From Phycisphaeraceae bacterium (GTDB lineage: Bacteria; Planctomycetota; Phycisphaerae; Phycisphaerales; UBA1924), in NCBI GenBank assembly GCA_019636795.1, contig JAHBWW010000003.1, positions 372,001 through 436,000 of the forward strand: a stretch of DNA of 64,000 bases. The letters run 5' to 3'. The notes beneath the pieces were generated by a model that saw only the letters and a list, made by a program, of their open reading frames with translations, did no database searches and had not been told where the DNA came from. Positions 23,914 through 25,214 of the stretch are shown piece after piece (the stretch's first letter is position 1; each line of letters starts with the position of its first letter). Position numbers and translations under genes: made by a program.

Positions 23914-24189
23914 ATGTGGTTGATGCTCTTTGGGGCGTATGCGATCGGTTCAGTTGTCTCGTTGACGTTGTTCGGGCTGGACAAGCACCGGGCAAGGACC
24001 GGGCGGTGGCGCATTTCTGAGAGCGCGCTGCTGTCGTCGGCGTTGCTGTTTGGCGTGCCGGGGGCGATAGTCGCCCGGAGACTGTTTCGGCACAAGACGC
24101 GCAAGCAACCATTCGGGATGATCTTGCTGGGCATCGCGATTCTGCATGCCTTGCTGCTGCTGACGTTGGCATGGGTCGAGTTGGGTTGA
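23914..24189 (+). CDS. DUF1294 family small membrane protein
   Basis: A 91-residue membrane protein with the DUF1294 pattern: a first span (MLFGAYAIGSVVSLTLFGL), then DKHRARTGRWRISESALLSSALLFGVPGAIVARRLFRHKTRKQPF, and a last span. The conserved DK, R-E and HKT-K-F residues are all there. ATG 23914 is used; the frame is open upstream and a TTG overlapping the previous stop is possible. Function of the family is unknown. Confidence 0.8.
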   Translation: MWLMLFGAYAIGSVVSLTLFGLDKHRARTGRWRISESALLSSALLFGVPGAIVARRLFRHKTRKQPFGMILLGIAILHALLLLTLAWVELG

Positions 24190-24218: not shown

Positions 24219-25214
24219 ATGACGATGTTGCCGGTACCCAATCTTGACGAGGATCAGATCGTGCGTGTGGTGACTGGCCTTCGGCCGTGTCGGCGCGGGG
24301 GGCTGCGCATCGAAATTGAGCGACTGGGCTCAACAACCGTGGTGCACAACTACGGACAGGGCGGGTGTGGGGTCACGATCGGGTTCGGGTGCGCGTCGCT
24401 GGCAGCGGATCTGGTCGAGAGCATTTCGAGCCCGCCCGAGACTGTTGTCGTGCTCGGCGGCGGAGTTGTCGGATTGACGGCTGCGGATGAGTTGTTGCGG
24501 CACGGGTTTGGAGTGCGGATCGTTGCGGACAAGTGGTTGAGCCAGACGACTTCGAACATTGCCGGGGCGATCTGGTTGCCGACGGGGCTGGATGTGCCAT
24601 CGACCCCGGAAGCGCGTGAGCGGTTTGATCGTGTGCAGGCAATTTCGAGAGCGAGGCTTGCGGAGATCGATCGCGCTCGCTTCGGCGTCGAGACCTTGCC
24701 GGTCTATGAGCCTGAGTACGCAGAACATCACGCGGAGTATTACAGGCCTGGAGTGCTTGAGCCTCCAGTGGCGTGCGGTCTGCTGCCTCTTGCTGGAGCG
24801 CCTCGGCAAGGTCGGGTATTCTCGACGGATTTCATCCATACGCCTCGGTTTTTGCGTGAACTTCGAGCGGACATTGTCGCACGCGGAGCGTTGCTTGAGA
24901 CAGCAAGAATTGCGTCCATCAAAGATGTGCACGATTTGAACGCCCGGGTGGTGGTGAACTGCCTCGGCCTGGGGTCGGGCGAGGTGTTTGGCGATACTGC
25001 GATGTTTCCGGCGTATGGGCTATTGGTGCACCTGAAGCCTCAGGCATTGGGATACATCGTGCACGACGGGTACAAGTACATGTTCCCGCGCGAGGATGCC
25101 TTACTGCTGGGCGGGTGCTTCAGGCCTGATGTGTGGTCGCTGGAGCCGGATGCTGATCTGGCCCGCGAGATCGTGACGCACCATCGGCGGTTCTTCGGGC
25201 TTGAAGAATCATGA
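24219..25214 (+). CDS. D-amino-acid oxidase homologue with circularly permuted domain order
   Basis: A 331-residue FAD oxidoreductase of the D-amino-acid oxidase (DAO) type with its parts in an unusual order. Residues 12-65 carry what is normally the C-terminal end: TGLRP (19-23, with the substrate-carboxylate Arg22) and VVHNYGQGGCGVTIGFGCA (41-59). The canonical N-terminal FAD motif then follows, VVVLGGGVVGLTAADELL (76-93). Next come SQTTSNIAGAIWLPTG, VVNCLGLGSGEV (245-256) and the active-site region YKYMFPREDALLLGGCF (285-301, Tyr287). The chain ends at a helix (LAREIVTHHRRFFG) that in ordinary DAO leads straight into TGxRP. All catalytic and FAD-binding parts seem present once each. ATG 24219 is used. 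Its stop overlaps the stop of the convergent methyltransferase gene (TCATGA). Confidence 0.85.
   Translation: MTMLPVPNLDEDQIVRVVTGLRPCRRGGLRIEIERLGSTTVVHNYGQGGCGVTIGFGCASLAADLVESISSPPETVVVLGGGVVGLTAADELLRHGFGVRIVADKWLSQTTSNIAGAIWLPTGLDVPSTPEARERFDRVQAISRARLAEIDRARFGVETLPVYEPEYAEHHAEYYRPGVLEPPVACGLLPLAGAPRQGRVFSTDFIHTPRFLRELRADIVARGALLETARIASIKDVHDLNARVVVNCLGLGSGEVFGDTAMFPAYGLLVHLKPQALGYIVHDGYKYMFPREDALLLGGCFRPDVWSLEPDADLAREIVTHHRRFFGLEES

Follow-up and report, generated by a model that had tools for sequence, protein, structure and literature searches.

A probable natural circular permutant of D-amino-acid oxidase, mostly signal-bearing, across many bacterial phyla

The gene at 24219..25214 of the window (the whole stretch of 64,000 nucleotides analysed here) very probably encodes a true circular permutant of D-amino-acid oxidase (DAO) / D-aspartate oxidase (DASPO), which apparently arose in a single event and spread through many phyla, mostly with a twin-arginine signal. 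In DAO, a textbook flavoenzyme, the FAD strand lies at the N-terminus. In the permutant, the usual last ~70 residues now come first. In the moved segment, two substrate-part strands, which include the active-site arginine, are followed by the HNYGxGG strand and a flavin-contacting helix; a 7-residue linker joins the segment to the FAD-binding strand, and the chain ends at the helix that in normal order leads to TGxRP. An earlier note had read the gene as a circularly permuted DAO homologue, and profiles, predicted structure and relatives uphold this. No description of a permuted DAO was found in the literature searched, which covered few subscription papers, in agreement with what that note had said, nor did we find there any description of a permuted, mostly signal-bearing DAO branch of apparently single origin.

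The features of the locus are as follows.

24219..25214, + strand: open reading frame encoding the permuted DAO homologue (331 aa and a terminal stop, uninterrupted)
24219..24419, + strand: residues 1-67, counterpart of the C-terminal end of normal-order DAO (profile E 1.7e-28, model); modelled secondary structure: strands 14-25, 30-36 and 39-45, helix 51-67
24273..24287, + strand: TGLRP, residues 19-23 (phmmer alignment)
24282-24284, + strand: R22, matching Arg283 of mammalian DAO (phmmer alignment)
24345..24395, + strand: HNYGQGGCGVTIGFGCA, residues 43-59, the HNYGxGG element (phmmer, profiles, conservation)
24420..24440, + strand: linker, residues 68-74, bridging the helix that used to be C-terminal and the strand that used to be N-terminal (model)
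24441..25211, + strand: residues 75-331, FAD-binding and substrate part, counterpart of the DAO N-terminus (phmmer, structure, profiles)
24444..24476, + strand: FAD dinucleotide-binding motif VVVLGGGVVGL, residues 76-86 (Pfam DAO, E 9.7e-27)
25077..25079, + strand: Tyr287, matching Tyr228 of mammalian DAO (phmmer alignment)

An in-frame ATG upstream at 24171 is an alternative start that would add 16 aa. The translation confirmed the motif order that had been claimed (TGLRP, then HNYGQGGCGVTIGFGCA, then the FAD motif), and R22 and Y287 stand at the residues named before, aligned with their DAO counterparts. We take Arg283 and Tyr228 of mammalian DAO to hold the substrate carboxylate, and the HNYGxGG element near the DAO C-terminus presumably contacts the flavin. 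DAO and D-aspartate oxidase (EC 1.4.3.3 / 1.4.3.1) are the best sequence and structure matches of the window protein and share with it fold elements, the FAD motif, the TGxRP arginine and HNYGxGG. However, normal-order DAO has the FAD strand N-terminal and TGxRP and HNYG C-terminal, and the window protein departs from this linear order, so we file it in a permuted sister group and not as an ordinary DAO/DASPO member.

Pfam DAO (PF01266) was the sole Pfam family over its cut-off in the window protein (94.8 bits against 27.9) and was matched in two stretches, while none of the eight NCBIfam models listed for the protein reached its own cut-off. Glycine oxidase ThiO (TIGR02352) and DadA belong to the same flavoprotein superfamily, but the window protein scored 45 bits (E 7.5e-12) with TIGR02352 against a cut-off of 250.8 bits, and the best matching stretch, 76-117, covered the FAD motif only. 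A phmmer search against PDB chains gave D-aspartate oxidase 6rkf as the best match (E 1e-24), with residues 75-320 on its N-terminal part and residues 14-68 on its C-terminal end. On pig DAO, residues 76-307 aligned with 3-248 and residues 7-66 with 268-330. We then built profiles from 61 permuted proteins and from 17 proteins of normal order belonging to the window's class, split each at points that we chose and compared the parts by hhalign. The permuted 1-70 matched the normal-order C-terminus (E 1.7e-28) and the permuted 71-331 matched the normal-order N-terminus (E 3.1e-68), whereas both uncrossed pairs gave no match (E 1 and 0.41); these E-values are those of a single-profile search. Crossed matches together with uncrossed nulls are the pattern of a circular permutation, and by the split-profile E-values the match is far above chance.

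Motif residues are conserved among the 61 permuted rows of this alignment. G80 and G82 of the FAD motif, H43, Y45, G46, G48, G49 and G51 of the HNYG element, and the equivalent of R22 were kept in all 61, and the equivalent of Tyr228 was present in 48 and absent from 13. With the arginine in 61/61 and the tyrosine in 48/61, the likeliest assignment for the family is a D-amino-acid oxidase or dehydrogenase. The window protein would bind FAD and oxidise D-amino acids by passing a hydride to FAD, the imino acid being hydrolysed to keto acid and ammonia, and the electron acceptor would be O2 or, in part of the family, a cytochrome c. Since 13 of the 61 lack the tyrosine equivalent, the substrates may differ in some members.

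This leads to the most serious alternative, less probable than the oxidase reading and still carrying real weight, in which the DAO-like fold does another job: it would act on other amines or D-amino-acid derivatives, or be a dehydrogenase that passes electrons to periplasmic cytochrome c and not to oxygen. The variation of the Tyr228 equivalent among permuted rows fits with this, as do some neighbours: immediately after the Kozakia gene comes one for a cytochrome c (PF13442), with a PF00144 serine hydrolase nearby, and the rhizobial genes are flanked by an FAD-binding oxidoreductase and a TPP enzyme. But a Pfam-confirmed cytochrome neighbour was seen at that one locus only. A CxxCH-bearing frame lay within 1.5 kb at 5 of 80 loci; four of these were run in Pfam, three without a match at E 1e-5 and the fourth a PSCyt2/PSD1 protein. 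The window gene itself lies beside genes for a DUF1294 protein and a THUMP-like protein, with no redox partner. As a general rule the cytochrome c link is thus weak, and what there is gives a hint of envelope redox chemistry in some members. A TonB receptor gene also lies near the Kozakia permuted gene.

Gene context gave no guide to the substrate, as the neighbours differ between lineages: when 548 neighbour ORFs were clustered, no single context recurred at more than 7 of the 80 loci, and the largest cluster, judged like the others from one representative run in Pfam, was an ABC ATPase in mixed orientation. On the rhizobial plasmids L193 (5929-6990) and L194 (5929-6981), the permuted gene sits between the FAD-binding oxidoreductase (BBE type) and TPP enzyme genes, with multicopper oxidase genes near it; these neighbours were identified by Pfam on L193 only. 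Nine plasmid records had a match, five of them annotated, as 'FAD-dependent oxidoreductase', and all four plasmid records examined were permuted. Because the annotated copies that we examined (three plasmid copies) carry only this name, an envelope D-amino-acid route may be overlooked.

The reading as a D-amino-acid-oxidising permutant also requires that the rearranged chain still completes the fold. AlphaFold2 on the 61-row permuted alignment gave a mean pLDDT of 95.7 and a pTM of 0.93. The earlier note had said that the idea would fall if the N-terminal 70 residues did not complete the DAO fold, but these residues were modelled with pLDDT 95-98, the same confidence as the core. Foldseek (E up to 0.001) returned 34 matches, all DAO-family enzymes, of which 33 were DAO or D-aspartate oxidase chains and one a glycine oxidase. 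A sequential aligner placed model residues 69-330 on residues 1-267 of human D-aspartate oxidase 6rkf (Z 21.5), and residues 1-68 fall outside this match because the aligner is sequential. As a control, we modelled the normal-order relative L115 (333 aa, 17-row alignment, pLDDT 91.5), which matched end to end in the same kind of alignment (4-333 on 1-335, Z 41.3).

When the two models were related through a sequence alignment, 22 of 23 secondary-structure elements in the permuted one landed on control elements of the same kind in rotated order, with the rotation point at about control residue 263 of 333. The mapping is partly many-to-one, in that strands 14-25 and 30-36 fall on one long control strand and two helices on one control helix, and the unmapped element is the 3-residue strand 184-186. 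R22 mapped to control R279 and Y287 to control Y224, and Y285 mapped to a valine. In the model the new ends are flanked by the long helix (312-325) and the TGxRP-bearing strand, in line with the claim that the chain stops at the helix normally preceding TGxRP. The linker had been put at about residues 65-74; a short linker is indeed modelled, and its extent is narrowed to 68-74 because the helix occupies 51-67 and the FAD strand 75-79. Model confidence, profile homology and element mapping together indicate that the predicted fold is complete, and on the model the window protein is a member of the DAO fold.

The short linker and the intact elements would equally suit a domain-swapped dimer, in which residues 1-70 complete the neighbouring subunit. 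However, every residue of the monomer model is placed with high confidence, and the helix and strand on either side of the linker are adjacent in the rotated map, so we consider the swapped dimer improbable and prefer the monomeric permutant.

That a frameshift, a misassembly or a fusion of two partial DAO genes produced the protein, the other outcome that the earlier note had named as fatal, has the odd element order as its only support and a negligible probability, since a single open frame runs across 24219-25214, codon-position GC is alike in both parts, and single-ORF co-linear relatives with 59% down to about 27% identity occur in many independent assemblies, among them a complete Synechococcus chromosome (L068) and isolate genomes.

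The permutation may plausibly have originated by tandem duplication and then trimming, as the earlier note suggested. In a strict motif scan for intermediates of such a duplication, each of 80 permuted ORFs kept for analysis had exactly one HNYG element and none had a second. Two ORFs alone, L029 and L088, had a second RP motif; it lies a long way upstream of the body and was put down to chance. Extra loose matches in L039, L101 and L102 were rejected as HNYG elements. The 756-aa frame of L112 was likewise rejected as a double gene: it has one HNYG, and the first of its GxGxxG-like matches falls within upstream sequence.

A search of the window's own genome and 60 relatives gave matches in 11 of these 61 genomes; the own genome and six matches in five others were full-length and co-linear, and the rest were partial or in two pieces. 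A contig scan with the permuted alignment then found at least 355 relatives, of which the best 80 were kept. All 80 had the permuted order, 78 by a motif script and two (L023, L057) by reading, as the script missed their FAD motif. A stricter FAD pattern hit 75 of the 80, missing L070, L074, L082, L090 and L092, which the first script had accepted and in which the FAD motif is nevertheless visible. Keeping the top matches to a permuted query favours permuted members, so 80/80 indicates that the order is common and not how its number compares with that of the normal order. The permutation spans many phyla, beyond Phycisphaerae. By record titles, the permuted rows of the tree come from ten named phyla (Planctomycetota, Pseudomonadota, Acidobacteriota, Gemmatimonadota, Myxococcota, Bacteroidota, Cyanobacteriota, Verrucomicrobiota, Actinomycetota and Chlamydiota) plus candidate division TM6, some of these assignments resting on one metagenome bin.

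Class samples were searched with the same query, the seed genome being counted in, and the counts are lower bounds, with 5 candidates scored per genome in Phycisphaerae, 10 in Bacteroidota, 11 in Alpha- and Gammaproteobacteria, 18 in Acidobacteriota and 35 in Actinomycetota. In Phycisphaerae, the window's class, where the earlier note had proposed a search for homologues with this order, 397 genomes gave at least 11 permuted and at least 13 normal-order proteins, translation-checked, with weaker matches left unclassified. The 190 genomes of Alphaproteobacteria gave at least 12 permuted and no normal-order proteins among the scored matches, by match coordinates. At least 10 permuted (match coordinates) and at least 3 normal-order (translated) proteins were found in 119 genomes of Acidobacteriota. 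For Actinomycetota (60 genomes), the figures were at least 1 permuted, the seed itself, and at least 7 normal (translated), with the FAD-motif-only match of G501 outside both counts. Among the scored matches from 185 genomes of Gammaproteobacteria, the seed stood alone.

At least 24 of 198 Bacteroidota genomes matched, 3 permuted and 14 normal by match pattern (6 of them translated). The other seven matched only in short pieces; of the six fetched, four when translated belonged to a divergent normal-order group and two had no motif-bearing frame. L180-L182 had no frame with motifs and are in no count. The divergent DAO-like group (L177-L179, L183, L184) has proteins of ~380 aa with the FAD motif first, and no signal peptide was seen in them. 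None of 28 genomes with a permuted gene also gave a normal-order match with the same profile (E up to 1e-8).

In a tree for which normal-order rows were rotated so that columns correspond, one branch parted the 61 permuted from 27 normal-order rows (SH-aLRT 100). A core-column tree with 60 permuted rows, without L023 because the script missed its motif, gave the same split (SH-aLRT 99). Both were quick unrooted searches with SH-aLRT support and no bootstrap, on rows that did not include ThiO/DadA-type sequences. Unrooted trees alone are silent on which order came first. To our knowledge, however, the normal order is universal in the DAO flavoprotein superfamily, so we infer that it is ancestral; the glycine oxidase ThiO / DadA-type relatives L163-L165 have it. 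On these alignments, a single rearrangement within one bacterial DAO lineage is the most likely origin. From it the permuted form would have reached many phyla, mostly as a twin-arginine protein and often with a lipobox-like cysteine; the window's Phycisphaerales clade has no signal and would be cytosolic.

Natural circular permutants are known in other protein families, such as swaposins and lectins, with the same kind of rearrangement and new ends in a surface loop. Unlike these, the permuted DAO is a flavoenzyme whose cofactor strand has moved from the N-terminus into the chain, apparently in one event; the permuted form is widely distributed and strongly linked to export signals. A natural permutant in ten named phyla would mean that the N-terminal FAD-strand layout of DAO is dispensable. 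It offers a natural test of fold tolerance and enzyme rewiring, and of why twin-arginine signals accompany the permuted order.

One rule applied to all proteins called a signal-like N-terminus in 78 of 97 permuted rows and a twin-arginine in 75 (the window excluded; two repeats, L005 = L029 and L012 = L031, and several near-copies included), against 2 and 0 of 38 normal-order proteins. L095, L100 and L195 have a twin-arginine start by eye, yet fail this script rule. The two normal-order hits, L145 and L160, look like upstream misreadings and are not twin-arginine. A stricter signal script called 66 of the 80 permuted proteins, 48 of these with a lipobox-like cysteine. All these signals are pattern-based predictions, from which export of the signal-bearing members would follow.

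The window protein fell in a Phycisphaerales clade of 13 rows without a signal. By eye, no export signal was seen in the open frame further upstream of it, and the other 12 rows have no twin-arginine signal. Thus, by its N-terminal sequence the protein is outside the twin-arginine-bearing subgroup, and its clade is predicted to be cytosolic. Signal state has to change four times on the tree, three of these among the permuted rows. The states were partly read by eye, and such counts do not distinguish a gain from a loss. Most simply, a signal would have been gained once, together with the permutation, and lost in the window's 13-row clade, in L006 and in L065. Because the order changed only once, order and export are tied by one correlated event, and their link is strong in its distribution and unreplicated. 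A tentative scenario, which we hold to be rather unlikely as a whole, is that one ancient permutation freed the DAO N-terminus from the buried FAD strand, so that a Tat signal or lipid anchor could be added and an envelope family of D-amino-acid-oxidising enzymes arose, the window's clade being a later return to the cytosol. If true, the permutation would be the structural change that opened export.

Some single loci also drew our attention. L006 and L012 (G022:C24:18536 and 24891) are two permuted DAO paralogues in one genome of the window's family; ~5.4 kb separates them, and only one has a Tat-like signal, none being recognised in the other. L048 (a Chlamydiae bin), L097 (a TM6 bin) and L099 (Glaciecola) have Sec-like, not twin-arginine, N-termini, which is odd because a flavoprotein is expected to fold in the cytosol. 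In Sphingomonadales, a Tat-type permuted DAO gene sits between hslV and hslU on the same strand, an unexpected guest in this pair. Both partners were seen at L030, L047 and L084, the hslV side at L034 and L056, and the hslU side at L040, with hslV identified as PF00227 (run on L034) and hslU as AAA_2 (run on L084).
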